Below are positions 9,331 to 26,491 of a DNA stretch of 64,000 nucleotides, piece after piece. Source of the stretch: Enterocloster clostridioformis (GTDB taxonomy: Bacteria > Bacillota > Clostridia > Lachnospirales > Lachnospiraceae). The notes under the pieces are model-generated. The model did not search any database. It worked only from the letters and a program-made list of their open reading frames with translations, and had not been told where the DNA came from. The translations under genes and the position numbers were made by a program. Within the stretch, counting starts at the first letter, position 1. Each line of letters begins with the position of its first letter. The stretch is taken from contig NZ_JAIWZC010000002.1 in the NCBI RefSeq assembly GCF_020297485.1, positions 1 to 64,000 of the forward strand. The letters run 5' to 3'.

Positions 9331-9396
9331 ATCGGATAGGGGAGATTTTAACCTCCCCTTCCACACCACGTAGCGTACCGTTCGGTACTACGCGGT
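9331..9396 (-). ncRNA. Group II intron domains V and VI
   Basis: On the minus strand, GAACCGCGTAGTACCGAACGG and its complementary return strand form a domain V-like hairpin. It is followed by the domain VI stem (GGGGAGGTTAAAATCTCCCC) with unpaired As and the terminal CTATCCGAT. This is the catalytic 3' end of the ribozyme, immediately after the maturase stop. Confidence 0.75.
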
Positions 9397-11441: not shown

Positions 11442-11837
11442 CACCGTGGGTATCCCCAGTTTCCTTGTTTTTCCTTTCTCCTCTTTGGGTATTTCTACCC
11501 TTCGGACTGGGTTTGGCTTGTATTTGCCTTCCCTCACCTGCTCGACCAATTCGGACTGGTGTTCTCTCAGGTAGGGTAGAAGTTCATCCACCTGCATTCC
11601 GTCAATCCCACCAACGCCTTTGTTCGTTTTGACCTTCTTATAGGCGGCATTTAGATTGTCGCTTCTAAGAATCGTATCTAGCAGGTTGTCCGTCCGAAAG
11701 TCCGTGTTGGTGTCGGGGTTCCCGGTAATCCTTTCATGGGCGTACTCTCCTGTTTCCCTTCCCTGTTCCGCAGGTATCTCTCGCAGGTAGTCCTCAATAT
11801 GAAGTTGTCTGTACTTAATTCCATGTCCGGTTTCCAT
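11442..11837 (-). pseudogene. Group II intron maturase, N-terminal part
   Basis: 132 codons from an ATG preceded by AGGAGGTG, matching the start of intron-encoded reverse transcriptases (NAAYKKVKTNKGVGGIDGM, then KYKPNPVRRVEIPK and KTRKLGIPTV). The frame leaves the family sequence directly after GIPTV, where the usual DRxxQQAI segment should follow, and enters antisense recombinase flank. Confidence 0.85.
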
Positions 11838-12240
11838 TTGGTAACGACACCTCCTACTGTTCAGTCCTTCCCGGTGCGTTTGCGACCGCCCGGTACTATG
11901 ACCTCTGCTGACTTCTCACGGCAGGCTTTACTCCGTGACAGCGAATGTTTTATCGCCACTTTCACGTCCGTGAGACCTCCCCGGGTACTCACACGTTCTT
12001 TCCCACTTATACCTGCCCCGTTTACTGCTGGCGTTCCGTGCAGTTATTGGACTTTAGTTTGTTAGGCAACCTCATCCACGCTTCACAGCCTATCCGGACA
12101 ACTTTTACAGGCCAGTGGTTTGCCTCCGGCTTCCTTCAGACCCCACCTCACGATGACGCCCTTGCCATTGGCTGCACCCTTCCCACTGCCGGGCGGGTCA
12201 GGGACTTTCACCCGTTAGAACGTGCGCCCGCCGGGCGCAC
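11838..12240 (-). ncRNA. Group II intron 5' ribozyme region (domains I-IV start)
   Basis: About 400 bases without a gene. On the minus strand they start with GTGCGCCCGGCGGGCGCAC, which folds on itself, followed by TAACGGGTGAAAGTCCC and other segments typical of group II intron domain I. Its orientation matches the maturase. Confidence 0.75.
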
Positions 12241-12339: not shown

Positions 12340-13269
12340 TTAATTTTGTCTGCAGACACCGGTCCTGATTCCGGGCACGCTCAGCCATGTCTCATAAATA
12401 TTGTCCTTAAACGCCTCCGGCTCTCTGATGACCGGCAGATTGCAGGTACACCTTTCCCCTTTCTTTCCGGCTGCCGCTCCATCCCGCATCCCATCACCAT
12501 CCATTCCCAGATACCCTGTCTCCAGGTCCTGCTCCGACACCCGCAGGCATTTTACATCATCCTCAAACAGTTCCGGATGCATGAGATAAGCCGCGGCCGT
12601 CACATCCCAGTTATAAAATCCGGGAATGCCGTAATCCTCATCATTATACCCGAACCAATAATCTGTTTTTTCCATGATATATGCTGCCGCCCTGTTTTCT
12701 TTTCCTGAGAACCGTTCCCTGTATTCCTGCTTTGTAAATAAAACCTTAAGGCAGTTGTTGCCTGTCATTATGGAAACATTCCGTCCCTTTGTGAGAACGG
12801 TCCTGGTTGCCGGCGGGTCACAGGAAAAATTCAGCTCATTCATTACCTTCTTATCAAATACAAGGGGACTTGTGATTCCGCCCATCAGGACAATCTCTTT
12901 TACCTTTTCAAAGAAATACCTGTCCCTCTCATAGGCGCCTCTCAGGTTTGTCAGGGAACCCGTGGCAAGAATCGACAGCTCCCCCGGATGGCGGTCCGCC
13001 ATTTCCGCCAGAAAACCGGCAGCCTCGCTCTGGTAACAGCCTCTCTTCTCCCCGCCTCTTTTTACGGGAATGTCCCTGCGTCCCAATTCTTCCAGCATCC
13101 GCAGATTCACTTCCTGCACCACATCCAGGCTGCTGTTGCCATAGGTGGAAGTGACCCCCAGAAATTCGGCTTCCCTGCTTCCCAGCAAATACATCAGGGC
13201 CAGCCCGTCATCCACATCGCAATTCTTTATTCCAAAGGTATTGTCACAGTCAAATACAATTTTCTTCAT
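12340..13269 (-). CDS. Inosine-uridine preferring nucleoside hydrolase family protein
   Basis: Predicted N-glycosidase of 309 residues that cleaves ribonucleosides to base and ribose. The calcium-binding signature at the N-terminus is partly unusual but recognisable (FDCDNTFGIKNCDVDDGLALMYLL), followed by GVTSTYGNSSLDVV and ATGSLTNLRGAY. It has AGGAGG eight bases before the ATG. It is the last gene of the leftward ynj-like locus, 26 bp after the ABC ATPase, which suggests that the imported molecule or a downstream intermediate is a nucleoside or nucleoside analogue. Family assignment is firm, substrate is not. Confidence 0.88.
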   Translation of the reverse strand: MKKIVFDCDNTFGIKNCDVDDGLALMYLLGSREAEFLGVTSTYGNSSLDVVQEVNLRMLEELGRRDIPVKRGGEKRGCYQSEAAGFLAEMADRHPGELSILATGSLTNLRGAYERDRYFFEKVKEIVLMGGITSPLVFDKKVMNELNFSCDPPATRTVLTKGRNVSIMTGNNCLKVLFTKQEYRERFSGKENRAAAYIMEKTDYWFGYNDEDYGIPGFYNWDVTAAAYLMHPELFEDDVKCLRVSEQDLETGYLGMDGDGMRDGAAAGKKGERCTCNLPVIREPEAFKDNIYETWLSVPGIRTGVCRQN

Positions 13270-13295
13270 CTATATTTCCTCCTGGCACATTCCTC

Positions 13296-14336
13296 TCATG
13301 CCATACCATGCCCAAACAGCACGGCTCCTTCTGTTTCCACGGCCAGTCCGGCCTTCATGCCTGCCCGGAATCGTCCGGGACGGCCGGGACCTTCCATCCT
13401 CTGGCACAGAATGCTTCCGCCGGGAGAGATTTTCTCCGGCACTCTTACCCTTATCTCTGTCATCTCCCCCATGAATGTGACCTCCTCCACCGCATAATCT
13501 CCTTTCTCCTGAAGACGCACTGAGTATGGACGTATCATGGCGTCATAGGCTCCATCCGGCAATTCCGTCCTTTTCTCAAACAGAGGACTGACAAATCTGC
13601 CTCCTGTCACCTCCCCGGAAATATAATTTACCTTTCCAAAGTACTCTGCCACCTTTTTTGTTTTTGGATGGCAGAACATCTGCTCCGGAGTACCGTACTG
13701 AAGAATCTGCCCATCCTCCATCAGCGCAATTCGGTCGGACATGCGAAGAGCCTCCGCCTTGTCGTGGGTGACAAGAATGGTTGTAATTTTCCACGCCTCA
13801 TGGAGTTTTCTTACCAGCCGCGCCATCTCCGTCCGCAGCCCCTCATCCAGGCCGGAAAACGGTTCGTCCAGAAGCAGTACCCTGGGTTCTGCCGCCAAAG
13901 CCCTGGCCAGGGCCACTCTCTGCATCTGGCCCCCTGACATCTCCCTCATTCTTCTCTTCCCGAATCCGGGAAGCTGCACTGCCCGCAGCAGTTCCTCCAC
14001 CCGCTCCTTCCGCTCCTTTTTCGGCACCTTTTTAAGTTCCATTGGAAAGGCGATATTTTTCTCCGCCGTCATATGGGGAAACAGCCGCAAATCCTGGAAC
14101 ACGATTACCGTTCCCCTATTCTTTGGCTGCCGGTCCATCACTGATGCTCCCTGTATCCGTATATCCCCGCTCTCCTGCTCCAAAAGACCTGCTATACATT
14201 TTAACAGAGTGGTCTTTCCGCAGCCGGATTTTCCTAAGAGGGATACAAACTCTCCCTCCTGTATTTCCAGGCTGATTCCGTGCAGTATCTCCTTTTTCTG
14301 AAGCGATACCTTCAGATCTTCTATGTTAAGACTCAT
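13296..14336 (-). CDS. ABC transporter ATP-binding protein (YnjD-like)
   Basis: Cytoplasmic ATPase of 346 residues. Walker A (GKSGCGKTTLL), Q-loop (FQDLRLFP), signature (MSGGQMQRVALARAL), Walker B (VLLLDEPFSGLD) and the switch histidine (VTHDKAEAL) are all intact, with a C-terminal TOBE-like regulatory region. I chose the ATG at 14336 (MSLNIEDLKV). It overlaps the permease stop by 11 nt, and the upstream in-frame extension is hydrophobic permease sequence in another frame. It powers the two permeases encoded just upstream. The set matches the YnjB-YnjC-YnjD importer family of unknown substrate. Confidence 0.92.
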   Translation of the reverse strand: MSLNIEDLKVSLQKKEILHGISLEIQEGEFVSLLGKSGCGKTTLLKCIAGLLEQESGDIRIQGASVMDRQPKNRGTVIVFQDLRLFPHMTAEKNIAFPMELKKVPKKERKERVEELLRAVQLPGFGKRRMREMSGGQMQRVALARALAAEPRVLLLDEPFSGLDEGLRTEMARLVRKLHEAWKITTILVTHDKAEALRMSDRIALMEDGQILQYGTPEQMFCHPKTKKVAEYFGKVNYISGEVTGGRFVSPLFEKRTELPDGAYDAMIRPYSVRLQEKGDYAVEEVTFMGEMTEIRVRVPEKISPGGSILCQRMEGPGRPGRFRAGMKAGLAVETEGAVLFGHGMA

Positions 14337-15156
14337 AATATCCTCCCGCCATCTGTCCGGTCCAATACCCCGCGATCCGTTCAAACACAGCAAATACCAG
14401 CAGGGTGATGCCCATGAACAGAATGCTGTATACGCAAGCAATATTCCGGCTGCCGCTCTGTAAATAGGGTACCATCACAACCGCAAATGTCTTTATCCTG
14501 CCGCCTCCAAGAAGCAGCGTCAGAAAATACTGGCTAAAGGATACAATGTATGACATGCTGACTGCCGACAGTATCACCGGGACCAGCATTGGCAGTGTGG
14601 TCCTTCTGAATGCCTGAAAGGGACCGGCCCCCAGCACCCGGGCCTGCTCCTCCAGCGCAATACCCACTGCCCGGGTGCCGTCCATGATAAGGCGCACCGC
14701 GTAGGGCAGGGAATAAATCAGGTGTGCCAGGATGACCCCTGCCACTGTATTGTTAAGTCCCATGCGGATAAATGTAATCTGTATCCCCATGGCAAACACA
14801 GTCGCAGGTACCATGAGGGGAAGGACCGTAAGAAAGGACATCAAATCCTTTCCCCGGAACCGGTACAGGATAAGGGCCCTGGATGTCAGTACCCCGATTG
14901 CGGCCGACAAGACGGCTACCACGGAAGAAATCATAATGCTGGATGCCATGAGGGAGAACAGTTCTCCCTTTCTTCTGACTATTTCCATGACTGCCCGGTC
15001 CGAGAGCACCTGGGGAAACAGGCCGGGCCAGGCCCATCGTTCCGTAAATACCCATACAACCAGACTGGCCGCGGGGATCAGAATGGATGCACAAAGTACG
15101 GCCAGAATTATATTTGTGATAAACGATTTTCTCTTCTTCATCTCCTGCCGCTCCAT
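14326..15156 (-). CDS. ABC transporter permease
   Basis: Inner-membrane permease of 276 residues with about six hydrophobic helices and a BPD_transp_1 EAA loop (EEQARVLGAGPFQAFRRTTLPML). It starts three bases after the first permease stop and overlaps the ATPase start, so the importer genes are tightly coupled. By itself it is a generic polyamine/iron-type permease; its neighbours point to the YnjC type, here split into two separate polypeptides. Confidence 0.9.
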   Translation of the reverse strand: MERQEMKKRKSFITNIILAVLCASILIPAASLVVWVFTERWAWPGLFPQVLSDRAVMEIVRRKGELFSLMASSIMISSVVAVLSAAIGVLTSRALILYRFRGKDLMSFLTVLPLMVPATVFAMGIQITFIRMGLNNTVAGVILAHLIYSLPYAVRLIMDGTRAVGIALEEQARVLGAGPFQAFRRTTLPMLVPVILSAVSMSYIVSFSQYFLTLLLGGGRIKTFAVVMVPYLQSGSRNIACVYSILFMGITLLVFAVFERIAGYWTGQMAGGYYES

Positions 15157-15159
15157 CTT

Positions 15160-16026
15160 CTACTGCTCCGTCAGCGCCTTCATATTTTTTTGCACAATAA
15201 AATAATAAATCCAGGCGCTGAGTACGGAGAGAATGATAATGATTCCATTTAACGCCATGGAATAGGGCCGGTTTCTCAAATCCGGATGGATATACTGCTG
15301 GTATGCCAGCACCGGAAGGGCCTTTGGCGAGGTGGCGCCCAGGAGAAAGGGCAGCTCATAGGCGCCCAGGGCAAATACAAATATAATCAGGAACCCGCTG
15401 ATTACCGCGCCTTTACAAAGAGGCAGGGTGATTTTACAAAAGGCAGTCCACCGGCCCGCCCCCAGGTTTATGGCTGCCTCCCCCAGGTTCTCATTGATAT
15501 TTGCCATCAGCGCAATGACAAAATAAAGGATGAAGGGAATCTCCTTCCACAAATATGCCAGGATGACTCCCACCCCCTTTGTATCGTAAATGAGCATGGG
15601 AAACTGCTGTTGTTCCTGTAACATTCCAAGGGCATAACCAATTCTGGCCAGCACACCATTCTGAGAAAAGATGTTGACCACAAAAATGGCCACCACTACA
15701 TGGGGGACAATGATGGGAAGCTGTATCACCCGCATCATGGGTCCCTTTGTCTTTTTGTGCGCCACACACACAGCGCTTAAACCCACGCCCGCCACAGTGG
15801 CAATCCCCGCGGACAGGAATGCCACCTTCAGGCTGTACAGCACAGATTTAAGCATCTCCGGCCTGGTCAGCACTTCCCTGTAATATTTAAACGTTGGCTC
15901 CCTTAACCCAAAAGCTGGAATTACCCCAAGACTCTGGGTAATTCCAGTTGCCAATCCTATGATAAACAACAGGGATAATATGATTTGGGGAGCCAGAAGC
16001 AAATACGGAGTCAGCTTTCTTCTCAT
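15160..16026 (-). CDS. ABC transporter permease
   Basis: Second permease, about 288 residues, six helices, EAA loop (LGEAAINLGAGRWTAFCKITLPL). I prefer the ATG at 16026 because GAGG lies seven bases upstream; the ATG at 16041 sits directly on its own GGAAGG. In E. coli YnjC is one double-length permease, whereas here the two halves are separate genes. It follows the substrate-binding protein in the operon. Confidence 0.88.
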   Translation of the reverse strand: MRRKLTPYLLLAPQIILSLLFIIGLATGITQSLGVIPAFGLREPTFKYYREVLTRPEMLKSVLYSLKVAFLSAGIATVAGVGLSAVCVAHKKTKGPMMRVIQLPIIVPHVVVAIFVVNIFSQNGVLARIGYALGMLQEQQQFPMLIYDTKGVGVILAYLWKEIPFILYFVIALMANINENLGEAAINLGAGRWTAFCKITLPLCKGAVISGFLIIFVFALGAYELPFLLGATSPKALPVLAYQQYIHPDLRNRPYSMALNGIIIILSVLSAWIYYFIVQKNMKALTEQ

Positions 16027-16050
16027 TCCTTTTCCTCTCATTCCTTCCCG

Positions 16051-17319
16051 TTATTTACCCACTACCTCCTCTGTCCAGATTTCCTCAATGATGGGAACCA
16101 GCTGCGCGGGCATCTCAGGAAGGCGTTTGGAGAGAAGTTCATCCTGGGGTATTGTCCCCTTGCCCAGGTCCACCCGGTCAAAGGCGGCTTTCTGCTCACC
16201 GGACAGCTTCTCGTTGTCCAGAACCGGAATGACCCTCAACTTCTCATAGCGGTCTGCCTGGATTTCCGGCGACATCATCTCGTTGATTGCCACCATGGCC
16301 CCGGCCTTATTGCCTGAGTTAGCCGCAATTGCCATAAAGTTGGTATTGCCGATGGTTCCCTTGTCAAACTGGAAGGCTGCCGTGGTATCTGTGTATTTGC
16401 CGTCCTCAATGCTCAGAGCCACGTCATAAGCTCCGTATGTCATGTTCATCACTAGTTCCCCGTCCGCAAACATGTTGTCCACGGTAGTGGAGGAATCCGG
16501 GAAGGCAGCTCCCTGGTTCCAAAGATATGGATTCAGCTCTCTCAGGTACTCCATGGCCGGCGCCACTGCCGCCCTGACGGTTTCCTTGTCCTCCTCCATA
16601 TCCATAAACTGCTCGTAGCCGCAGATTTCATAGATAATATTTCTCACAAACGCGCTGCCTGTGAAATCAGGAAGCGCGGGATACGTCACCTTACCCGGAT
16701 ATTTCTCCACGAATTCCCTCAGCGCTCCGGCGCTCTCCGGCACATCCGGCGTCACTGCCAGGTCCGCCACCATGACCAGCTGGGCCTTTCCGTAAGGCGC
16801 CTCATACCCTTCAATCGGATAAGCAAAGTCCATGGTCACATCCTCGCTGTCCCCATCCACATAGTCATTAAAATTGGGAAGCTTATCTGTAAAGGGGCCG
16901 TACAGCATGTTGTTTTCCTTTGCTGACCGGAAGTTCTCCCCGTTAATCCAAATCATATCAATGCTTCCGTCCTTCCCGCCCGCCTGTATCTCCCCGGTGA
17001 GCTGGCTTAAAACCTGGTCGATATCCATGGGCACACGCTCCATTGTGATATCGTATTTTTCCTTCATGACCCGCGCAAATTCATCGTCCAGCCACCGGTT
17101 CAGTTTTTCATCCCCGCCCCAGCCGTAGAAGGTAACCGTTGTTCCCTTTGCTGCCTCCTTCATCTGTTCAAAGGTCATGTTCTCCATGCCGGGCTGGCTG
17201 CTTCCCGTATCCCCGGCCTGGCTGCCGCCTGTGTCCTGTGTCCGTCCGCTTCCCGAACACGCTCCCAGAGACAGCATCATTGCGGCGGCCAATACCGCTG
17301 CTGTGATTCTTCTCCTCAT
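16051..17319 (-). CDS. ABC substrate-binding lipoprotein (YnjB-like)
   Basis: Cell-surface solute-binding lipoprotein of 422 residues. It has an N-terminal signal with a lipobox (LSLGACSGS, Cys at about 21) and a Gly/Ser/Thr-rich linker before the binding fold. The segment FYGWGGDEKLNRWLD and especially DMIWINGENFRSAKENN are characteristic of the YnjB group, whose ligand is unknown. AGGAGGAG precedes the start. It is separated from the rhodanese gene by a large inverted repeat at 17351-17436, so the importer may be expressed at a different level from the genes upstream. Confidence 0.88.
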   Translation of the reverse strand: MRRRITAAVLAAAMMLSLGACSGSGRTQDTGGSQAGDTGSSQPGMENMTFEQMKEAAKGTTVTFYGWGGDEKLNRWLDDEFARVMKEKYDITMERVPMDIDQVLSQLTGEIQAGGKDGSIDMIWINGENFRSAKENNMLYGPFTDKLPNFNDYVDGDSEDVTMDFAYPIEGYEAPYGKAQLVMVADLAVTPDVPESAGALREFVEKYPGKVTYPALPDFTGSAFVRNIIYEICGYEQFMDMEEDKETVRAAVAPAMEYLRELNPYLWNQGAAFPDSSTTVDNMFADGELVMNMTYGAYDVALSIEDGKYTDTTAAFQFDKGTIGNTNFMAIAANSGNKAGAMVAINEMMSPEIQADRYEKLRVIPVLDNEKLSGEQKAAFDRVDLGKGTIPQDELLSKRLPEMPAQLVPIIEEIWTEEVVGK

Positions 17320-17350
17320 GCTTTCTCCTCCTGCTGTTTCTCTAAAAATA

Positions 17351-17436
17351 ATAACCCTGCCTGATAATTTTATGATTTCCCCTGCCGTAATCTTATGCAG
17401 TGCGGTCAGGGGAAATCACATCACCGGAAGGGTTAT
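17351..17436 (-). terminator. Nested long inverted repeat between rhodanese and importer genes
   Basis: On the minus strand an outer ATAACCCT / AGGGTTAT stem encloses an 11-bp perfect GATTTCCCCTG / CAGGGGAAATC stem that continues into CCG/CGG past one bulged base. The outer stem is followed by TATTTTT. It begins two bases after the rhodanese stop. It can act as a terminator that partly uncouples the importer genes. The multi-helix shape also leaves room for a regulatory RNA. Confidence 0.6.
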
Positions 17437-17437
17437 C

Positions 17438-18280
17438 CTATTCTGTTACAAATGCAGCCTGGATATCCTTATCCTTCGCGCCGTTTTCAATGATAAACAG
17501 ATTGTCAACATCGAATCCGGCATCCTTCATGACGGAAATACCTGTTTTTGCGCACTTGTTTCCGCTGTAGCAAAGCAGGTATACGGGTTTGGACGGGTCC
17601 ATTTCCTCTTTTGCCATCTTGTACATGGCAGTCTGCGCTGCCGGGTCTTCGATTTCCTTTAAGGGGCTCTGGAGGGATCCCTTTAAATGGCCCTCTGCAT
17701 ATGTATCATTGTCGCGGACATCCAGGATTTGGACATCGCTTCCTCCCACTGCCTTTAAGGCATCTGCCGCCGTGACTGTTTTCCAGTCGATATCCTCGTC
17801 AGCGCGGTTGGTGGTAAGGGCGCCTTTCTCAGACTCCAGGGCTTTGGCTCCGCCCTCCACGGTATAAATCAGGGAACCGTCGATGCCGGCCTCCTTAAGA
17901 ACACCGGTTGCCTTCTCAGCGCCTCTCTTGCCGCTGTTGCAGATGATATAGATTTTCTGTCCGTCGCTTAAGTTTTCCTTTGCATATGTATTCATGGCAT
18001 CTGCCAGGGAATCATCCTCCAACGGGAAAATAGGGCACCAATCGGAATCAGCCACCCTTCCCTTCACATAATTATCCCATTCCCTTACATCCAGCACATG
18101 GGCGCTCTTATCTTTTGCCGCCGCCACAGCGTCTCCCGGAGATACATACTGATAGCTGTCATCAGACTGCGCTGCCGCTGCCTGAGCTGTTGTTTCAACT
18201 CCTGCTTTCTGGCCGCATCCGGCCACTGCTGTCATGGACAGCGCCATCATGATCCCTAATGTAACGATTTTCTTTTTCAT
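17438..18280 (-). CDS. Exported lipoprotein with two rhodanese domains
   Basis: Sulfurtransferase-like protein of 280 residues. A signal peptide ends in a lipobox (TAVAGCGQ), so it is anchored outside the membrane. Two rhodanese domains follow, each with a candidate active cysteine loop: IICNSGKRG in the first and LLCYSGNKC in the second; both keep the preceding LDVREWDNY / LDVRDNDTY motif. Rhodaneses carry sulfane sulfur as a persulfide. It overlaps the TVP38 stop by 4 nt. Another exported rhodanese opens the same locus. Its partner and acceptor are unknown; the YnjE analogy in E. coli supports a role together with the YnjBCD importer. Confidence 0.88.
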   Translation of the reverse strand: MKKKIVTLGIMMALSMTAVAGCGQKAGVETTAQAAAAQSDDSYQYVSPGDAVAAAKDKSAHVLDVREWDNYVKGRVADSDWCPIFPLEDDSLADAMNTYAKENLSDGQKIYIICNSGKRGAEKATGVLKEAGIDGSLIYTVEGGAKALESEKGALTTNRADEDIDWKTVTAADALKAVGGSDVQILDVRDNDTYAEGHLKGSLQSPLKEIEDPAAQTAMYKMAKEEMDPSKPVYLLCYSGNKCAKTGISVMKDAGFDVDNLFIIENGAKDKDIQAAFVTE

Positions 18281-18987
18281 TTCTTCCTCCTTGTTTTATC
18301 TTGTTTTTCTATATATATTTTCCTTACCATGGCAACAAAGGCAGATAAGGCAAATAATATCAGTAAGCCGGTGACAAAGAACCTGGCGCCGCCGGTCAGC
18401 ATTCCTCCCACATAGGAGTATACAATGGTCGCCGGAAGCTGTCCGATTCCCGTGGCTATGAAAAATGACAGAAAGGGCATGGATGTAAGCCCCGCCCCAT
18501 AGCTCACAATGTCAAAGGACACAAAAGGCAGAAGCCTGCAAATCAATATTGTATTTTTGCCGTATTTATCAAAAAAAGTGTCTATCTGTTTAAGCCCCGC
18601 CTTGCTGGTCAGCTTTTCCGCCGCATCCCTTCCCAGTATCCTTGCTATGTAAAAACAAAGGGCGGCGCCTGCCATGGCACTGGACCAGGACAGGATTGCT
18701 CCCTGCCACCATCCAAAGAGATTCGCGTTGGCAAAGGTGATGAGGAAGGCCGGAAGAGGCGCCATGACAGACTGCAGCACCATCAGTCCGAAGGATACCG
18801 CAGCAGCATAGTTTCCGTAGGAAGCCACAAATTCCCTGACCACCCCAAAGTCTCCGGTGGCAAACATGGTAACGATTTTATTCATCATATCCTTTACAGA
18901 CGGTATGCACATATAGCTCAGTATGGACGCGGCTATGCATGCAGCCACCACGGTTTTCCATATCCATTTACTCTGTTTTTTCTCCAT
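18277..18987 (-). CDS. TVP38/TMEM64 family membrane protein
   Basis: Integral membrane protein of 236 residues of the DedA/TVP38 (SNARE-associated) superfamily, like E. coli YdjX/YdjZ. The conserved core is present: GWWQGAILSWSSAMAGAALCFYIARILG, seen in part as FYIARILGR, then the LICRLLPFVSFDIVSYGAGLT loop around residues 150-170. Relatives act in lipid flipping or scrambling and membrane-potential homeostasis; the role here is inferred. AAGGAG precedes the start. It is followed by the rhodanese with a 4-nt overlap and preceded by the APH-like kinase by 13 nt. Confidence 0.88.
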   Translation of the reverse strand: MEKKQSKWIWKTVVAACIAASILSYMCIPSVKDMMNKIVTMFATGDFGVVREFVASYGNYAAAVSFGLMVLQSVMAPLPAFLITFANANLFGWWQGAILSWSSAMAGAALCFYIARILGRDAAEKLTSKAGLKQIDTFFDKYGKNTILICRLLPFVSFDIVSYGAGLTSMPFLSFFIATGIGQLPATIVYSYVGGMLTGGARFFVTGLLILFALSAFVAMVRKIYIEKQDKTRRKK

Positions 18988-19000
18988 TCAGACTCCTTTC

Positions 19001-20002
19001 CTACAGCCTGTCCATCTTTTCTAAAAATTCCATGTCCAGATACTGCCCCAGCTTTTGAAACGTGGACTGATTAAACAGCAGCTTGTCCGGCTGCTGGTAC
19101 TGCACCCAGGCCATGGCGCACCATGTAATTCCCCGCAGGCAGGTGATGGGTATATAGGCAAGAGTCCTCTCCATCAGCCCCCTTGTGTCAAATCTGCCGT
19201 CCACCTTTTGTATATACAGATTTATGAAGTTCTCCATCTCCTCCGGGCTCAGAATCACATCTGTTTTCCAAAATGTGGTGGTTGGCGCAAGGAAATGTCC
19301 CAAATCCTGGGCCGGTTCCCCCCGGACAGGCTTCTCCCAGTCCACCAGGTAGTTTCCCTTTCCCTCTCCGTTGATGAGGAAATTAGTGGAATTGAGCTCC
19401 GTATTGACGCAGCATTCATAGCCTTTGCAGACTGCTGCCTCCCTGCAGCGTCTCCAGCCCCGGTCCAGCATCTGTCTTATTTTCATTTTGAGCTTCCGGT
19501 CCCCCAGGTCTGAATCCATGTATGTCCTGACCATTTCCTCGCATTCTGTCAGGATTGCCTCCAGGGGGTTCTCCGGCCTAACCAGATGGCTGCCGCTTCC
19601 CACCCTGACACTGTGGATGTCCGCCAGGCACTCCGCTCCAAAGGACAGCTCAGTCCTGTAATCCATGGGGTGTCCCGGCAGGAATTCCATCACCATGATG
19701 CCATGAGGAATTTTCACCAAACTCCCGTCCACATAAAAAGGCCGCGGTGTCCTGCCCGAATGCAGGAGCAGCTTTAACGTATCGTATTCGTACTGTATCT
19801 GATGTTCCAAATGCATCTGGCTGCCGCAGTTTACGCGGAGCACCAGCTTTCTGCCGGTGACAGGATGGGTAAACAGGTAATTCCTGTTGTACTCCCCCTG
19901 GGCCAGCATACGGTATTCCTCCGTCACCTGGTCAGGCAGTCCCAGCGCGCTGCGGTACTGCTTCCAGGCCACATATTCCCTTAATCCGGCTATCCGTTCC
20001 AT
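19001..20002 (-). CDS. APH/choline-kinase-fold phosphotransferase family protein
   Basis: Cytoplasmic protein of 333 residues with the aminoglycoside/choline kinase fold. The nucleotide-binding lobe shows NRNYLFTH and KLVLRVN, the linker IMVMEFLPGHPMD, and the metal-binding aspartate YLVDWEKP (Asp221). The catalytic loop, normally HxDxxxxN, reads NTELNSTN (residues 200-207): the base Asp is Glu202 and the His is Asn, while Asn207 stays. So it may be a kinase of altered mechanism or low activity. It lies 6 nt downstream of the fused glycosyltransferase, which suggests action on an alcohol or sugar headgroup in the same pathway. It is not a resistance gene by context. Confidence 0.82.
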   Translation of the reverse strand: MERIAGLREYVAWKQYRSALGLPDQVTEEYRMLAQGEYNRNYLFTHPVTGRKLVLRVNCGSQMHLEHQIQYEYDTLKLLLHSGRTPRPFYVDGSLVKIPHGIMVMEFLPGHPMDYRTELSFGAECLADIHSVRVGSGSHLVRPENPLEAILTECEEMVRTYMDSDLGDRKLKMKIRQMLDRGWRRCREAAVCKGYECCVNTELNSTNFLINGEGKGNYLVDWEKPVRGEPAQDLGHFLAPTTTFWKTDVILSPEEMENFINLYIQKVDGRFDTRGLMERTLAYIPITCLRGITWCAMAWVQYQQPDKLLFNQSTFQKLGQYLDMEFLEKMDRL

Positions 20003-20008
20003 TTTATG

Positions 20009-21340
20009 TCACCTCACATCCCGGTACATCCGGTCAATCAGTCCAATGGGCACCCGATCCCGGTACATCTTACGCAGCCGGTTCATTTTCCACATCAGCT
20101 TAAGCTTGGGCAGGGTTCCTTTGGGGAAACGCCTGTCCGAAGTATAGATGCGGCGTCCGGTCATGCCCAGCTTTACTCCCCGCTCCTTAAGCGTCAGAGA
20201 AAACTGGTAATCCTCCATCACAGGAATCTCCGGAAACATGCCCGCGTCGAAAAACAGGCTGCGGTCCACAAAGATGCCCTGATCCCCAAACATGACCTTG
20301 CGGTCCTTAATCCGGTGGTTTGATATCACGCGGCAGGTAAACATGAAGAAGTTGCGCGAATGAAAGGCAATCCCGAAACATCCCGCGCTGTGGTCCTTCA
20401 TCACTCTGCGTATTTCAGCCAGGGGACGGGGCGGCAGTTCACTGTCGCAGTGGAGAAAAAACAGAATATCCCCATGGCTCTTCCTGGCGCCCGTATTCAT
20501 CTGCTTCGCCCGTCCCTTTTCTGAGTGTATGACTTTAACCCAGGGGCGAATCCGTTCCATGGTCCTGTCCGTGCTGCCGCCGTCTACAAACAGTATTTCA
20601 CATGTTCCTCTCAACGGTTCCAGCTGGTCCTGCATCTGACAGATGGTCTTCTCCTCATTGTAGACAGGTACAATGATGGAAATACGGCTGGTTTTTGCCA
20701 GATACCGTCCTGTGGACGTATTTTGCAGCCTCTTATCCTCCCGCATTCTCCGGCGGTATCCCTGAAGATCCTGGTAAACGTCCATGTCCCACATTGCTTC
20801 GGTAAATCCCACCGTGCACCCTTCCGTCTTAATCCGGCGCACAGTGTCCCAAAGCACGGAGCCCTGTCCATATCCTTCCACCTCAAACACGGCCCGCCGC
20901 GGTTTCTTCATGCCCACCAGATAATATCCCCCGTCCCTGGTAGGCCCCAGTACCACATCCTTTTGTTCAAGCAGACCAAATGCCCGTTCCAGATACTCCG
21001 CCCGCACTTCGGGTACATCAGTTCCCATGAGTATACATGCGTCATAACCCCGGCCCAATACCTCCCGGATGGCCTGATACATCCGTTCCCCCAGGCCGCT
21101 GCCTCTCTGGGAAATGTAATATTCCCCTCTGCCAAAAACCGGATGTAAAAGTTCTCTGCCCTCGTCCGGTGTAAAGCATACAAAAAGCTGCCCCTCCACC
21201 TTCCCGCATTCCCTCTTTATATCTTCCAGAAAACAGGTGTGGAGACGGGCGCAGCCCTTAGCACTGAGCGCGGGCATCATCCTGGTTTTTGTCTGTCCGG
21301 GTTCAGGAACCCTTGTGAAAATAATAATCGCGCGTTTCAT
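20009..21340 (-). CDS. Fused glycosyltransferase: TIGR04282-like plus TIGR04283-like domains
   Basis: Bifunctional-looking protein of 443 residues. Residues 1-200 are a DUF2064/TIGR04282 domain (FTRVPEPGQTKTRM, ILMGTDVP, GPTRDGGYYLVGM). Residues about 217-443 are a family 2 glycosyltransferase of the TIGR04283 type (ISIIVPVYNEEKTI, FVDGGSTD, HCDSELPP, FGDQGIFV). The two families are normally separate neighbouring genes and are named after arsenosugar biosynthesis, but no arsenic methyltransferase or ArsS-type radical SAM gene is in this window. Here they are fused in one frame. It probably builds a glycosylated or glycerol-type headgroup. The protein is soluble, with no clear membrane helix. 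Confidence 0.85.
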   Translation of the reverse strand: MKRAIIIFTRVPEPGQTKTRMMPALSAKGCARLHTCFLEDIKRECGKVEGQLFVCFTPDEGRELLHPVFGRGEYYISQRGSGLGERMYQAIREVLGRGYDACILMGTDVPEVRAEYLERAFGLLEQKDVVLGPTRDGGYYLVGMKKPRRAVFEVEGYGQGSVLWDTVRRIKTEGCTVGFTEAMWDMDVYQDLQGYRRRMREDKRLQNTSTGRYLAKTSRISIIVPVYNEEKTICQMQDQLEPLRGTCEILFVDGGSTDRTMERIRPWVKVIHSEKGRAKQMNTGARKSHGDILFFLHCDSELPPRPLAEIRRVMKDHSAGCFGIAFHSRNFFMFTCRVISNHRIKDRKVMFGDQGIFVDRSLFFDAGMFPEIPVMEDYQFSLTLKERGVKLGMTGRRIYTSDRRFPKGTLPKLKLMWKMNRLRKMYRDRVPIGLIDRMYRDVR

Positions 21341-21377
21341 CTTTCAGATTCTCTCCATCTTCCGTCTTGCCAAACCA

Positions 21378-22361
21378 TCACCAAAATTTTGTAAGCATCC
21401 TGTTAACCATTGATTTCCCGATATCCGGCTTCTCATCACATCCCAGAATCTCAGGCAGCAGGTGTGTGACTCCCTGGCAGCCGCCCCGGGTAAGGTTTCC
21501 GGCGCAGGACGCACAGTAGGTAAATACAGTCCCATTCCCCTGGTCCCTGGTCTGGTGCGCCATCTCACGGGCCAGTTCCGGCTCCTTTCCTCCCGCGCAC
21601 CCTCCCAGACCGCAGCACTGGACGCCCTGCACAGTCTCAGGCATGTTCTTTAGAAATGGAGCCAGCCACTGCACCCACTGTTTTCTCTCCCTGTCAGGGC
21701 ATGGAAGGAACAGCGCCCCGTTCCCTTCCAGCTGGAGGCCCATTCCCAGCCGGGCTAATTTCTCATAAATGCTGATAACCTTTACCTCCAGCTTATCCTT
21801 CAGGAACTCATAACAGTTGGGACAGAGCATCACGGCCTCCTCAGCCCCTGCCCTGCGAAGATTTTCATTTATCCTCCCTGCGATTTCCTCCTCATCCCTT
21901 TTAAGTCCAAGCTCTGCCACCGGTTTGCCGCAGCAGTCAAACAGGACTCCCATATCTTCCTTTTCCTCCAGCAGACTGATTAGTTTCCTGGTGGTCTTTG
22001 GATAAAAGGAAGGAAAATTGCACCCCGGAAACAGAATGCTCCTGCCTGCCAGCCGCCGTTTATTGCGGTAAATATAATTCCGCTTTTCCGCCAGAACCAA
22101 GGCGTACCCTTTTTCCGGACATTTTCCCTGATTTTCCTCCACCCTTTCCCGGCGCATATCCAGGATGACCGCCCTGCCGTCAATTCCCAGCGGGCAGACC
22201 TGGGTACAGGTTCCGCACAGGAAACAGTGATAAGCTAACTCCTTGAGCTCTGCCGTGTCACCGATATCAAGGCCGTACTTACTTAAAAAAGAGCAGTTTT
22301 CCCGGCATATGCGGCAATGTACGCATTTATCGCTGTCTTTTATCCTGAATTTCCCGTTCAT
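21378..22361 (-). CDS. (Fe-S)-binding protein with two ferredoxin clusters and CCG domains
   Basis: Redox protein of 327 residues. Two 4Fe-4S motifs lie at the N-terminus (Cys13/16/19/23 in CVHCRICRENC and Cys46/49/52/56 in CFLCGTCTQVC). CCG-type domains follow (FDCCGKP, MLCPNCYEF, VQCCGLGGC, TYCASCAGN), as in heterodisulfide-reductase subunit B and LldE-like proteins, which hold noncubane clusters. I chose the ATG at 22361; the longer reading frame enters the TVP38 gene out of frame. It overlaps that gene by 35 nt. It probably carries electrons to or from a thiol/disulfide or quinone step. It occupies the place of E. coli YdjY between two TVP38 proteins, although the domains differ. Confidence 0.82.
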   Translation of the reverse strand: MNGKFRIKDSDKCVHCRICRENCSFLSKYGLDIGDTAELKELAYHCFLCGTCTQVCPLGIDGRAVILDMRRERVEENQGKCPEKGYALVLAEKRNYIYRNKRRLAGRSILFPGCNFPSFYPKTTRKLISLLEEKEDMGVLFDCCGKPVAELGLKRDEEEIAGRINENLRRAGAEEAVMLCPNCYEFLKDKLEVKVISIYEKLARLGMGLQLEGNGALFLPCPDRERKQWVQWLAPFLKNMPETVQGVQCCGLGGCAGGKEPELAREMAHQTRDQGNGTVFTYCASCAGNLTRGGCQGVTHLLPEILGCDEKPDIGKSMVNRMLTKFW

Positions 22362-23076
22362 CCTCTTCCAACCTTTCCTCTGTCTCCCGCAGTACATACC
22401 TTTTTTTAAAAAACATACCCAGGCCAATGACAACTGCCGCCAGCACAGCCGTGATGGAGAAATAGAGAACCCGGTTCTCCCTGTCAGCCAGGCCCGCGGT
22501 TCCCACTGTATACATGGCTGTTCCGGGCAGCATGAATACGAAGGAATATATGGAATAAGTCCCAAAGGGGATGTCCGTAACTCCATAAGCAAAATTCTGC
22601 AAATTATAGGGAAACAGGGGAACCATCCTTGTAATCATCAGCACAAACAGTTCATTTTTCCCCGACTCGTCAAACAGCCATTTTTTCAGGTATTTATTCT
22701 TCATAACCACAGGCTTGATACTGTCCTTCAGGAAAAAACGGCCTGCCAGAAAGGCTGCCATGGCTCCCAGAGTAGCTGCCACCGTACAGCATAAGGTCCC
22801 CAGTACCGGACCGAACAGCAGGCCTGCCAGGATGGCAAATGTAACTCCCGGCAGCGTGAGCACCACACAGCCAATCACCGTGACTGCCGTGTATGCGAAA
22901 ACCGCAGCCGCCATATGCTCCTGTGCCATTCTTCCCAGAAACTCCAGCGTGTCTCTGCCCCCTACCCGGGCTGACCAGCCGAATACATGGTTGCAGACCA
23001 ATACCGCCAGGATGATTACGGTGAATAATACCGGCTTTTTAATATTCTTTTTATTATGCTTTCCGCTTTCCTTCAT
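22327..23076 (-). CDS. TVP38/TMEM64 family membrane protein (second copy)
   Basis: Integral membrane protein of 249 residues, second DedA/TVP38-type gene in the locus. It has about five to six helices. The family core includes LTLPGVTFAILAGLLFG, LGAMAAFLAGRFF, and the ITRMVPLFPYNLQNFAYGVTDI loop. The C-terminus is charged and cytoplasmic (RETEERLEEDEREI). The ATG at 23076 follows AGGAACAGAGG; earlier codons overlap the upstream gene. The pair of TVP38 proteins flanking the Fe-S gene copies the E. coli ydjX-ydjY-ydjZ arrangement. Confidence 0.88.
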   Translation of the reverse strand: MKESGKHNKKNIKKPVLFTVIILAVLVCNHVFGWSARVGGRDTLEFLGRMAQEHMAAAVFAYTAVTVIGCVVLTLPGVTFAILAGLLFGPVLGTLCCTVAATLGAMAAFLAGRFFLKDSIKPVVMKNKYLKKWLFDESGKNELFVLMITRMVPLFPYNLQNFAYGVTDIPFGTYSIYSFVFMLPGTAMYTVGTAGLADRENRVLYFSITAVLAAVVIGLGMFFKKRYVLRETEERLEEDEREIQDKRQR

Positions 23077-23098
23077 CCTCTGTTCCTTACCCTGCGTT

Positions 23099-23536
23099 TC
23101 ATCCCATTCCCTGCCGGCCATGCCTGCACACCAACATTCCAATCCACGTCTTCACAACCTGAATCAGGGACACGCCCCCCAGTATCGCACTGATGAAATA
23201 GTAAGCCCGAACCTCATCCGCTGAATTCATCCATGTATATCCCCCATAAGCAGATGTCAGCGCTATCATACCTGCATTCATAAGCCACACTGTTTTTGTC
23301 AGGTTCCTTCTCTGTCTCAGGAAATAGAGAAGAAGCATCACGGTCAGGACCGCCATCAGAAGCACAGCCCCATTTGCCAGCAATTCCATGGGATATCTGG
23401 CTTCCCAGCTCCGGTTTTTATACACCACGTACCGTGCCATCCCCATTTTCCTGCGGGTAAAATACTGAATGGCCCATGCCCCTGCCAGGCACAGGATTTC
23501 CAGTATTGTCACAGATATATATGCAGCTTTCTTCAT
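23099..23536 (-). CDS. Small four-helix membrane protein of unknown function
   Basis: Protein of about 145 residues with four predicted membrane segments (about residues 5-25, 52-72, 85-105 and 113-133) and a basic loop after helix 1 (YFTRRKMGM). I do not recognise a family. Position between the first rhodanese and the second TVP38 gene, same strand and 22-nt spacing, makes it part of the locus. It could be a membrane anchor for one of the redox or sulfur proteins; that is speculation. Confidence 0.7.
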   Translation of the reverse strand: MKKAAYISVTILEILCLAGAWAIQYFTRRKMGMARYVVYKNRSWEARYPMELLANGAVLLMAVLTVMLLLYFLRQRRNLTKTVWLMNAGMIALTSAYGGYTWMNSADEVRAYYFISAILGGVSLIQVVKTWIGMLVCRHGRQGMG

Positions 23537-23559
23537 AACCATTTTCCCTTTTACATTTA

Positions 23560-23594
23560 ATAAGCGTTGGACTTAATCAAGACGCAACGCTTAT
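23560..23594 (-). promoter_or_regulatory. 9-bp hairpin between rhodanese and membrane-protein genes
   Basis: ataagcgtt / aacgcttat perfect stem with a 17-base loop in the 64-bp gap. No T run follows on the minus strand, so it is more likely a processing or mRNA-stability site than a terminator. Confidence 0.45.
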
Positions 23595-23606
23595 CTTCAC
23601 CAATCT

Positions 23607-24761
23607 TTATTTTTTTGCTTTGTCCGTGGACAACTCACCCACCGTGGTAAACCGGCAGTCGCTATTTGCCGGGTCTCCCACCTGCACCGGAAGTGAATCA
23701 TCCATCTGCCACTGGTACCAGCCTCCGTCATACAAGGTCATATTGGTCATTCCGTTTTCATAGCAAATCAGGAACGGGATCGTAGCTCTCCAGCCTGTGC
23801 CGCAGTAAAAGGAAAGCTCATTGTCAAGAGAAGCACCGGATTCCTCCAGATAGCCCTTTAATACATCCAGGCCGGCTGTGGTTCCGTTCTCATTAAGATA
23901 GGAACCGTCATCCGTATCATGTCCCCAGACAGCGCCCTCAGGTTCGCCTGCCCTGTCAATGTATCCATATCCGCTTGTCTTGCCCAGGAATTCGTCCCTG
24001 CTGCGGATGCTGACCAGCTTAAAGTTATCGTCATCTGCCAGCTTTTCCTTTACCTGGTCAATGGACAGGATGTATTCAGGATGGGCCGGGATTTCCACGC
24101 CGAACTCCTTGTCAGCGGCCTGCGGGGTATTGATAGTTTTCTCAGTCTCGTAGCCGCTCTCAAGCCAGGCTTCAAAACCGCCGTCCAGACATTTTACATT
24201 CTCCACACCGGCCCATAAAAGGGTGAATGCCACGCGGTCGTCCGCAGAATTCGTGCCCTTATCACTGTAGCAGATAACCGTTGTATCTTTTGTGATTCCG
24301 TATTCAGCCATCAGAGCCTTTATCTCTTCCGGAGTCCGGATATTCCAGTATTCCTCTGATTCAATATCATCTGTATTCATATGATAGGCTCCTACGATAT
24401 GGCCGTCCTTATAAGACGCCGCATCCTGGACAGTACCCCATGCACATTCCAGAACCATATAATCCTTTGACTCCTCCTGATTCCCGTCCAGAACGCTCTG
24501 AACCCAGTCCGGTGACACATAGACCTTTTTCTTCTCAACCGGGTCCGCCTTTACAGCAGATGAATTCCCTGTCTCTTCACCTGTTTCTAACTTTGCCGCG
24601 GCTGTGTCCTTTGTCGTATCCGCGCTTGTATCCGCTGCCATCCCAGCTGACGCGCTGCTGTTTGACCCGGCTGCCGTCATTGAAGCATCTGTATTGGAAG
24701 AACACCCTGCTGCCAGTAATGCAGCAGTGCATAAAACAATGCCTAAAAATCTTCTCTTCAT
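23607..24761 (-). CDS. Exported two-domain rhodanese lipoprotein (thiosulfate sulfurtransferase type)
   Basis: Sulfurtransferase of 384 residues. The signal peptide ends in a lipobox (LAAGCSSN) and an 80-residue Ser/Thr/Ala-rich linker leads to two rhodanese domains. Active-loop cysteines are in TVICYSDKGTNS and SFYCGTGWRAT; the second matches the C-G-T-G-W loop of SseA/TST-type enzymes. It would transfer sulfane sulfur outside the membrane. It is the first gene of the leftward locus, with a sigma-A promoter 65-90 bp upstream. It is longer and in a different subgroup from the second rhodanese at the end of the same run. Confidence 0.9.
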   Translation of the reverse strand: MKRRFLGIVLCTAALLAAGCSSNTDASMTAAGSNSSASAGMAADTSADTTKDTAAAKLETGEETGNSSAVKADPVEKKKVYVSPDWVQSVLDGNQEESKDYMVLECAWGTVQDAASYKDGHIVGAYHMNTDDIESEEYWNIRTPEEIKALMAEYGITKDTTVICYSDKGTNSADDRVAFTLLWAGVENVKCLDGGFEAWLESGYETEKTINTPQAADKEFGVEIPAHPEYILSIDQVKEKLADDDNFKLVSIRSRDEFLGKTSGYGYIDRAGEPEGAVWGHDTDDGSYLNENGTTAGLDVLKGYLEESGASLDNELSFYCGTGWRATIPFLICYENGMTNMTLYDGGWYQWQMDDSLPVQVGDPANSDCRFTTVGELSTDKAKK

Positions 24762-24823
24762 AATTATTTTCCACTCCCGGTTTCGTATTGTCTCAGTATA
24801 AATAATATAATGTTACTTTGATT

Positions 24824-24853
24824 ATTATAAAAACACCTGCTTGTTTTGTCCAA
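24824..24853 (-). promoter_or_regulatory. Sigma-A promoter of the rhodanese/ynj-like locus
   Basis: On the minus strand TTGGAC, an 18-base spacer and TATAAT in an AT-rich 200-bp gap, about 65 bp upstream of the first gene of the locus. The rest of the gap shows only a weak agtc/gact hairpin near 24910, which could end the oxidoreductase transcript. Confidence 0.6.
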
Positions 24854-24961: not shown

Positions 24962-26347
24962 CTATCTCTTATCCGCCTTTAAATCAGTCTGGGCAGGATT
25001 GTCAATCAAACTGCCATCTTCAGAAAACCGAGAGCCATGGCATGGACAGTCCCAGCTGTGTTCCTCCTGGTTCCAGGACAGCCTGCAGCCCATATGCGGA
25101 CATCTGGGTGTCCCGAAGGCGGTAAGACCGCGTAAAGCATGGTATCCTTCCTTTAAAAAGGAGCCCGCAGATGCCTTCCATGTCCATCTCTGAGGAGAAA
25201 AAACCTGTTCCCACGGGCTCTCTATGCCCATGACCAGATTCCTTAAAATCAGTGCCGAGACCATGGAACCGGTCATTCCCCATTTCTGGAAACCGGATGC
25301 TATATACCAGTACGGCCGCAGACGGGAATATTTTCCGATATAGGGAACAGCATCCAGCGTCATACAGTCCTGTGCCGCCCACTCTGAAACAATCCTCAAA
25401 TCCGGCCACAGGGTTCTGGCCTGACCTCTCAGGTATTCAAAGGAAAAGCCGTCACACCCTTCTCCTGTGCGGTGTCCTCCGCCTCCCATCAGAATATAGG
25501 GACCTGCCTTTCGAAAGGACAGTCCATCCTCATCAACGCCATAATACATGCCGTCCAGATTAACCTGCTTCCCGCCTCCGGCCTCCAGCGCCAGCACATA
25601 GCTGCGTTCCTGATGCATCCTGGCAAAATAAAATCCAGGCACATTCTGAAACGGATAATGGCAGGCAAAAATAATTTTCTCTGCCTCCATGATTCCCCGG
25701 TCCGTAATCAGACGATGCCCCTCCACCTTTTGCACCGCAGTGTGTTCAAAGACAGGGATTCCCTCCCTGACAGCCTCAAGAAATTTAAGCGGATGAAACT
25801 GCGCCTGATTTTCAAATAAAAGCGCCTCTGTTACCGGAAAGGGCAGACTGGTGTCAGATGTCAGGACAGCCGGAAGTCCAAGGCTTACAGCTGCCCTGTA
25901 CTCCTTTTCCAGATGTATCCTTCCGCTTTCCTCCTTTGAATAGAGACAGGCGGGAAGGCGGACAAAGCCGCAGTCAATGTTCCGGGCCCGAATCATCCTC
26001 TCATATTCCTCAACGGCGCTTTGGTTAGCCCTTGCATACAGAAAAGCCCTGTCATGTCCCATTGTCCTGACCAATTTGTCATAGATAAGTCCGTGCTGGG
26101 ATGTGATTTTTGCCGTGGTATTCTTTGTCTGACCGTGGCCCGCCACCCTGGCCTCCAGAACCGCCACATCTGCGCCCTGGTCCGCAAGCATGCGGGCGCA
26201 TAGCATTCCCGCCATTCCCGCGCCTATCACAGCCACCTCTGCCCTGGGTGGAAGGTCTGTCCTGCTTTTGCGGCCCGTGTCCGAGGGACCTGACTGTGCC
26301 GGATGTTCCGTATTCTCACGTATATCTTTTAACCATATAGATTCCAT
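24962..26347 (-). CDS. FAD-dependent oxidoreductase with C-terminal Rieske domain
   Basis: Protein of 461 residues. The DAO/GMC-type FAD fold begins with VIGAGMAGMLCARMLADQG (about residues 40-58) and the TTAKITSQH segment typical of this group. A C-terminal Rieske 2Fe-2S domain has both ligand boxes (CPHMGC and CPCHGSRF). Similar Rieske-containing oxidoreductases are common in bacteria but poorly characterised. I prefer the ATG at 26347, seven bases after GGGAGG. It sits upstream of, and in the same direction as, the rhodanese locus, but an AT-rich gap with a separate promoter divides them, so it may be a companion redox gene rather than part of the operon. Confidence 0.87.
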   Translation of the reverse strand: MESIWLKDIRENTEHPAQSGPSDTGRKSRTDLPPRAEVAVIGAGMAGMLCARMLADQGADVAVLEARVAGHGQTKNTTAKITSQHGLIYDKLVRTMGHDRAFLYARANQSAVEEYERMIRARNIDCGFVRLPACLYSKEESGRIHLEKEYRAAVSLGLPAVLTSDTSLPFPVTEALLFENQAQFHPLKFLEAVREGIPVFEHTAVQKVEGHRLITDRGIMEAEKIIFACHYPFQNVPGFYFARMHQERSYVLALEAGGGKQVNLDGMYYGVDEDGLSFRKAGPYILMGGGGHRTGEGCDGFSFEYLRGQARTLWPDLRIVSEWAAQDCMTLDAVPYIGKYSRLRPYWYIASGFQKWGMTGSMVSALILRNLVMGIESPWEQVFSPQRWTWKASAGSFLKEGYHALRGLTAFGTPRCPHMGCRLSWNQEEHSWDCPCHGSRFSEDGSLIDNPAQTDLKADKR

Positions 26348-26491
26348 TTCATGACCTCCCAGCAATGCGTACTAATGGTTATTGTTCCCCGGAAAAGACA
26401 AAATATGAAAGGTATTATTTTGAAACATTCTGTTTATAATGAAACACGCGCTTGGCCCGGCTCTCTCAACCCGGCTCTCATCGACCCACGC

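Follow-up and report, generated by a model that had tools for sequence, protein, structure and literature searches.

The window analysed here, a stretch of 64,000 nucleotides from Enterocloster clostridioformis (contig NZ_JAIWZC010000002.1), carries at 12340-24761 a cluster of 13 open reading frames (ORFs), all on the minus strand and spaced by -35 to +118 bp, which includes relatives of the E. coli genes ydjX, ydjZ and ynjB to ynjE. We found that loci built around the substrate-binding protein YnjB hold one of two enzyme sets, or neither, and with a single exception never both, and that these sets have been exchanged for one another several times. We tentatively propose, with somewhat less than even confidence, that the locus imports a glycoside- or nucleoside-like compound and makes a lipid headgroup of it along one or other of two interchangeable routes. 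The window locus and its E. coli counterpart are both uncharacterised, and under this proposal the unexplained E. coli genes ydjXYZ-ynjABCDEF become a testable pathway.

Each of the 13 ORFs was scanned against Pfam and NCBIfam, and the profile matches confirm the inventory given by an earlier, sequence-only reading of the window: thirteen same-strand genes with a YnjB/C/D-type importer, two double-rhodanese lipoproteins, a kinase fold, a fusion protein and a nucleoside hydrolase. In the order of transcription, the first half runs from a double-rhodanese lipoprotein through a 147-amino-acid membrane protein, a YdjX-like TVP38 protein, an iron-sulfur (Fe-S) protein with CCG domains and a TIGR04282-TIGR04283 fusion to an APH-fold protein; the second half runs from a YdjZ-like TVP38 protein through a second double-rhodanese lipoprotein, YnjB, two permeases and an ATPase to a nucleoside-hydrolase-like protein. 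The same reading had the two TVP38 genes flank the Fe-S gene, which holds for the YdjX-like gene, with which the Fe-S gene is in contact, but not for the YdjZ-like one, from which two genes separate it. The kinship with E. coli is true homology by BLAST, with identities of 56% to YdjZ (over the whole length, E 3.7e-93), 39% to YnjE (E 2.6e-67), 35% to YnjB (E 4.4e-63), 33% to YnjD (E 1.2e-27) and 32% to YdjX (E 2.8e-29), and with YnjC represented by two halves (E 9.5e-10 and 2.0e-7 for the permeases). YdjY, YnjA and YnjF find no BLAST match at E 0.01 among the 13 proteins, and when the whole genome was searched with a Lachnospiraceae YnjF, no match turned up at E 1e-5 either. The Fe-S gene, taken earlier for a ferredoxin-type counterpart of ydjY, is thus ruled out in that role; YdjY is a lipoprotein, whose family (NF040466) was detected on one plasmid locus, L004. 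Elsewhere, the best match of E. coli YnjA (at 9377-9925 of locus L009) is to a YciW-related (seleno)protein family, with a score under that family's cut-off.

The comparison rests on 90 YnjB loci, i.e. the best 80 of 574 tblastn relatives on genome contigs, which for that reason lean towards the YnjB of the window, together with loci from plasmid records (93 had a YnjB match and nine were opened; L004 is unannotated). Some of the 80 are short contig ends. Loci were split into ORFs by a longest-ORF script and clustered by script; this calling missed YnjF in L010 and L011, both annotated in their records, and YnjB in nine loci, and the family labels include matches above 40 bits to script-made profiles, some TIGR04282/TIGR04283 labels being weak (e.g. 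L019, L033 and L044). Type A, to which the window locus belongs, is defined by the hydrolase-like protein, APH, TIGR04282 and/or TIGR04283; type F, which includes E. coli, is defined by a YnjF-type CDP-alcohol phosphatidyltransferase. Both were scored within 9 kb of YnjB, or over the whole stretch for the nine loci without a called YnjB ORF. The script calls gave 40 loci of type A, 34 of type F, none with both and 16 with neither; once the annotated YnjF of L010 and L011 is counted, the figures are 40, 36, 0 and 14 (Fisher 7.6e-14, for loci that are not independent). A tree of 81 YnjB proteins, of which 69 carry an A/F label, requires 8 changes of that label, at least five of which are forced by well supported branches, against a mean of 23 for shuffled labels, indicating that the A and F sets were exchanged several times. 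A whole-genome search found no YnjF match above 31 bits in any of 23 type A genomes, while six type F genomes score 145-174 bits, a seventh being the query's own genome, and the genome of L146 scores 45. Five further YnjB loci came from the genome samples: L136 and L139 are type A, L137 is type F, in L138 a hydrolase-like protein lies at a distance of 8.5 kb, and L146 contains both sets.

Co-occurrence of YnjB with TVP38, rhodanese and TIGR04282/TIGR04283, which the sequence-only reading had proposed to follow across phyla, does extend beyond the window genome, and subsets of these partners accompany YnjB in Bacillota, Fusobacteriota, Actinomycetota, Spirochaetota, Desulfobacterota and Pseudomonadota. 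Among 118 Clostridia genomes drawn regardless of the locus, YnjB was found in five, TIGR04283 in four and both in three (Fisher p 1.5e-4). The two genes lie within 4 kb of each other in two of these three, one being the window genome (G000) and the other G254, and on separate contigs in the third (G200); the two sampled YnjB genomes without TIGR04283 are those of L137, which is type F, and L138. In general, TIGR04282 and TIGR04283 are separate genes in 11 of the 13 YnjB loci that hold both, and all 120 listed homologues of the fusion, which were picked by similar length, carry both domains.

Every reaction, substrate and product in what follows, and the role of TVP38, we infer. YnjBCD would import a glycoside- or nucleoside-like compound X. 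In type A loci, the nucleoside-hydrolase-like protein would release a sugar from X, the APH-fold protein would phosphorylate it, the TIGR04282 half would use a nucleotide to activate the sugar phosphate, and the TIGR04283 half would move the sugar onto a membrane-lipid acceptor; in type F loci, YnjF would couple the imported alcohol, or its phosphate, to CDP-diacylglycerol and so reach an equivalent lipid by the other route. The YdjX/YdjZ-type TVP38 proteins may carry the lipid across the membrane, and the rhodanese lipoproteins, predicted to sit outside the cell membrane, may form a linked sulfane-sulfur or redox branch with the Fe-S protein. From the swap of YnjF for the kinase/TIGR04282/TIGR04283 set one would expect both types to yield an equivalent kind of product, probably a lipid, and the lipid hypothesis of the sequence-only reading gains strength because a CDP-alcohol phosphatidyltransferase partners YnjB in 36 of the 90 loci and is exchanged there for the hydrolase, kinase, TIGR04282 and TIGR04283. 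That reading ran ahead of the evidence in suggesting a sulfur-linked product, any transfer of sulfur to a sugar or lipid being unproven. We consider it improbable that the product is a membrane glycolipid with an S- or Se-bearing sugar, built by enzymes of the arsenosugar type, for which the precursor would be imported, the rhodaneses would give the chalcogen, TIGR04282/TIGR04283 or YnjF would link the sugar or alcohol to the lipid and YdjX/YdjZ would move it; if true, E. coli and gut clostridia would have a bacterial lipid class in common, with two exchangeable routes leading to it.

Both halves of the fusion bear NCBI names as arsenosugar biosynthesis glycosyltransferases and pass the respective cut-offs, although the radical SAM enzyme ArsS (TIGR04167) is absent from the window genome at E 1e-20, so that the database label is attached here to a gene whose genome lacks this enzyme. 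The product of ArsS is a purine nucleoside, and in arsenosugar phospholipids the sugar sits on a glycerol headgroup. Among the YnjB genomes ArsS exceeds its cut-off in just one of 28, and we rejected it as a part of type A genomes. The name may be apt in the phylum of Halodesulfovibrio (G017), where 35 of 118 genomes have ArsS, 48 have TIGR04283 (E 1e-35; 43 over cut-off) and 33 have both (p 2e-15), i.e. TIGR04283 accompanies ArsS in 33 of 35 genomes. We examined the surroundings of 22 ArsS genes (20 of the 36 matches in that phylum and two of Raoultibacter), and those of TIGR04283 in 15 of 15 genomes without ArsS and 20 of 33 with it. Around the 22 ArsS genes we found TVP38 in 10 loci, TIGR04283 in 6, and TIGR04282 and a MerA-like FAD oxidoreductase in 5 each, and YnjB, the hydrolase and APH in none; 20 random stretches of ArsS genomes held TVP38 once and the other listed families never. 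The MerA-like oxidoreductase lies directly beside TVP38, near ArsS or TIGR04283, in L107, L112 and L118 (also L125 and L131), and the pair occurs in type F YnjB loci too, as a two-gene module common to both settings. A replacement of hydrolase and kinase by MTA-phosphorylase-type genes in ArsS loci was considered and is unsupported, though thinly tested: ten ORFs from six loci, four of them also inspected by eye, gave no phosphorylase in an NCBIfam scan. In PMC12159101 ArsS is cited as the enzyme responsible for adenosylation in the synthesis of arsenosugars, and PMC8552651 cites it as one step of the arsenosugar pathway.

Several observations weigh against a lipid headgroup pathway with two interchangeable routes. 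When corrected for descent, the opposition of F to A leaves nine independent pairs, none changing the same way and about four the opposite way (median p 0.125), which are too few; the corresponding tests of TVP38 against a lipid-type enzyme (median p 0.125) and against TIGR04282/TIGR04283 (median p 0.69) have low power. L146 (8945-9739 and neighbours) combines a diverged CDP-alcohol transferase with APH, TIGR04282, TIGR04283 and YnjB, and because of this one exception the sets are not strictly exclusive and strict exclusivity was rejected; several of the genomes searched for YnjF are, in addition, metagenome assemblies that may be incomplete. The sequence-only reading took shared partners in distant phyla to imply one conserved pathway, and of this the recurrence in six phyla stands, but a uniform pathway is unsupported because two or more alternative enzyme sets exist and because some YnjB loci have the hydrolase alone, the kinase alone or, in 14 of 90, none of these enzymes within 9 kb. 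Conversely, L135 (6872-11393) is a tightly packed row, rhodanese-TIGR04282-TVP38-TVP38-TIGR04283-Fe-S, from which YnjB, hydrolase and kinase are all missing; its genome (G236) measures 1.6 Mb and is the sole sampled Clostridia genome with TIGR04283 that lacks YnjB. TIGR04283 adjoins ArsS in just 6 of the 22 ArsS loci. Of the stretches around TIGR04283, no more than 3 of 20 contain TVP38 where the genome has ArsS, and 4 of 15 where it does not. The enzymes themselves raise doubts as well. About 28 residues of known nucleoside hydrolases are missing from the hydrolase-like family, in which Trp also replaces His, so that the substrate of this family may not be a nucleoside. In kinases of the APH/choline-kinase type the HxDxxxxN loop bears the catalytic Asp, which Glu replaces in 24 of 24 aligned APH-fold proteins, and this makes kinase activity unsure even though the kinase fold is present and close to that of choline kinases. 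YnjB looks more like a sugar binder, but as binding proteins for different ligands have similar folds, the fold is weak evidence for a sugar; a sequence search of the PDB returned nothing for YnjB (E 0.01) or for the APH-fold kinase (E 0.1).

Could the locus be a sulfur or selenium system instead, in which rhodaneses take up sulfane sulfur or selenium outside the cell, TVP38 passes it through the membrane, reduction falls to the CCG/Fe-S protein, and the product of the sugar enzymes is a thio- or seleno-sugar that serves as carrier or store? We regard this as unlikely, about half as credible as the lipid headgroup pathway, though the association with selD speaks for it: selD is present in 57 of 79 tested YnjB genomes (29 + 50, with L035, L072 and the plasmid records set aside), in 17 of 18 that have TIGR04282/TIGR04283, and, in the class sample, in 4 of 4 TIGR04283 and 4 of 5 YnjB genomes against 21 of 118 overall. 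Ordinary use of selenocysteine may explain this, as SelA is present in 25 of 31 tested genomes, and the descent-corrected association of TIGR04282/TIGR04283 with selD has a median p of 0.5. Only 17 of 28 type F genomes have selD, the other 11 keeping the locus without it, and an obligatory dependence on selenium is thus not borne out for type F. A read-through scan of 162 sequences including the window, limited to frames for which the called ORFs include a Cys-bearing relative, found in-frame TGA in L057 and L101 alone and no selenocysteine in the window locus. In both hits a rhodanese TGA aligns with Cys, at 2067 of L057 (13 of 14 alignments, in the rhodanese loop) and at 3489 of L101 (20 of 21; an ArsS locus), making these two rhodaneses probable selenoproteins on alignment evidence. 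Also in its favour, the Fe-S/CCG protein of the window resembles positions 345-639 of NF045663, a dicluster protein family named for nearness to Sec genes, at 109.7 bits, far under the cut-off of 530, whereas the likeness of YnjB to sugar binders argues the other way. The window genome has a selD with an in-frame TGA (G000:C2:460833-461756) and a selA on another contig, and YedF (TIGR03527, 218 bits), selenium-linked and sulfurtransferase-like, is encoded near the locus at 8667-9293 on the plus strand. The selenium-gene passages of PMC5322559, PMC9312934, PMC5029168 and PMC2432076 do not name the locus, although in Slackia PMC5322559 lists a glycosyltransferase of unspecified kind (Shel_25140) close to selenium genes.

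Slightly less credible again is plain salvage, in which YnjBCD, the hydrolase-like protein and the kinase would feed a nucleoside or glycoside to carbon metabolism, next to a separate envelope operon with TVP38, rhodanese and glycosyltransferase. The 118-bp gap before ynjB does divide the window cluster into two halves, and hydrolase and YnjBCD occur without TIGR04282/TIGR04283, TVP38 and rhodanese in L003 and L034 (full stretches) and in L012 and L028 (cut by contig ends). Yet among the 54 YnjB loci without YnjF, the Fe-S gene is found in 13 of 18 with TIGR04282/TIGR04283 and in 3 of 36 without, rhodanese in 12 of 18 and 3 of 36, respectively; the gene order is mixed in L016, L057, L063 and L077, and in 36 other loci the partner is YnjF. 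If X were an arsenic-containing nucleoside or arsenosugar, imported to yield an arsenosugar lipid, the NCBI names, the link of TIGR04283 to ArsS, the TVP38 genes near ArsS and the presence of ArsS together with L146 in one genome (G116) would fit, but the near absence of ArsS from YnjB genomes and of YnjB, hydrolase and APH from ArsS loci makes this very improbable. We give as little credence to a chance neighbourhood, or several independent operons without joint function: parts of the set do occur alone, as in L003, L135 and the ArsS loci, but the co-occurrence in genomes drawn regardless of the locus, and the recurrence across many families, are hard to reconcile with it.

The 13 genes are likely to form a single transcript. 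A promoter-like site (TGGACA-17-TATAAT, 24824..24852, minus strand; 11 of 12 consensus positions in a consensus scan) sits some 60 bp ahead of the first gene, but it is only suggestive, being the best of 18 matches where shuffles expect 12.6; terminator-like matches are near scan noise (16 found, 11.4 expected). All on the minus strand, the genes begin with the double-rhodanese lipoprotein related to the C-terminal two thirds of YnjE (23607..24761), which has a lipobox and the active-site loops CYSDKG and CGTGWRA; together with the second such lipoprotein (17438..18280; profile matches, lipobox, loops CNSGKRG and CYSGNKC), four active-site Cys can be read from the two proteins. The predicted 147-amino-acid membrane protein (23099..23542) matches no Pfam or NCBIfam family at E 0.001. 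Next come the VTT-domain TVP38 protein nearest YdjX (22327..23076), the protein with a ferredoxin-type and two heterodisulfide-reductase-like CCG domains by profile (21378..22361), the fusion (20009..21340; 196 and 229.7 bits against cut-offs of 134 and 182), the APH/choline-kinase-fold protein, identified by profile and alignment (19001..20002), and the VTT-domain relative of YdjZ (18277..18987), the two TVP38 genes being the only VTT_dom matches at E 0.001 in the 5.87-Mb genome. YnjB (16051..17319; NF008633, 466.9 bits, cut-off 203), a lipoprotein, is followed by two ATP-binding cassette (ABC) permeases that align with the N-terminal (15160..16041) and C-terminal (14326..15156) halves of YnjC and by the ABC ATPase related to YnjD (13296..14336), all by profile and BLAST, and by the nucleoside-hydrolase-family protein (12340..13269; PF01156, 137.7 bits).

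Directly downstream of the operon, a group II intron occupies 9397-12157, with two minus-strand matches to Rfam intron domains (11864-11934 and 11990-12157); by sequence reading it contains reverse-transcriptase-like ORF pieces (9397-9825, 9813-10265 and 11364-11837) and, between them, a recombinase-like ORF on the plus strand (10307-11356). Just upstream, on the strand of the operon, a FAD-dependent oxidoreductase (DAO) is fused to a Rieske domain (24962-26365); this ORF is in none of the recurrent ORF clusters. A search of the open-licence literature by E. coli gene names found no paper on the function of the locus, and nothing pairing TVP38 with rhodanese or selenium, or with a CDP-alcohol phosphatidyltransferase or ABC transporter. 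In published expression tables ydjY and ynjE appear alongside genes for anaerobic respiration (PMC9068703, PMC2241611), a table of the BaeR regulon gives weak increases for ynjA-ynjB (1.6 and 1.4; PMC2731931), and PMC9184624 names ynjC 15 times.

Among the closest known systems, the E. coli locus ydjX-ydjY-ydjZ-ynjABCDE with ynjF shares relatives of YdjX, YdjZ, YnjB, YnjC, YnjD and YnjE with the window, whereas of these two loci only that of the window has the hydrolase-like protein, the APH kinase, the TIGR04282-TIGR04283 fusion, the CCG Fe-S protein and the second rhodanese, and YnjC is one protein in E. coli but two permeases here. ArsS loci have TIGR04282, TIGR04283 and TVP38 nearby, as the window does, in 5, 6 and 10 of 22 cases, but in the window an importer, hydrolase and kinase stand in the place of ArsS. 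With the IU_nuc_hydro nucleoside hydrolases the window protein shares PF01156, over its cut-off, the metal-site Asp residues and the ELN motif; it differs in a 7-residue insertion in the DxD..DD metal motif, in its roughly 28-residue gap and in a Trp-Asp pair that replaces His-Asp near the C-terminus. This pair is reminiscent of the purine-specific (IAG) type of nucleoside hydrolase, a candidate identity, but IAG enzymes rank low in the profile search (best E 1.3e-12, against 4.8e-41 for plant NRH3). The choline headgroup is made either directly, by phosphatidylcholine synthase, or by the Lic/choline kinase route. The window departs from these routes in its TIGR04282 half, which has a CofC-like nucleotidyltransferase fold with KTRM and DGGYYL motifs, in its last enzyme, a GT2 glycosyltransferase (the TIGR04283 half), and in the Glu that its kinase has for Asp. 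The pair of type A and type F would nevertheless parallel phosphatidylcholine synthase and the choline-kinase route: in both systems two alternative sets stand behind an importer, one a CDP-alcohol transferase and the other a kinase with a nucleotidyltransferase.

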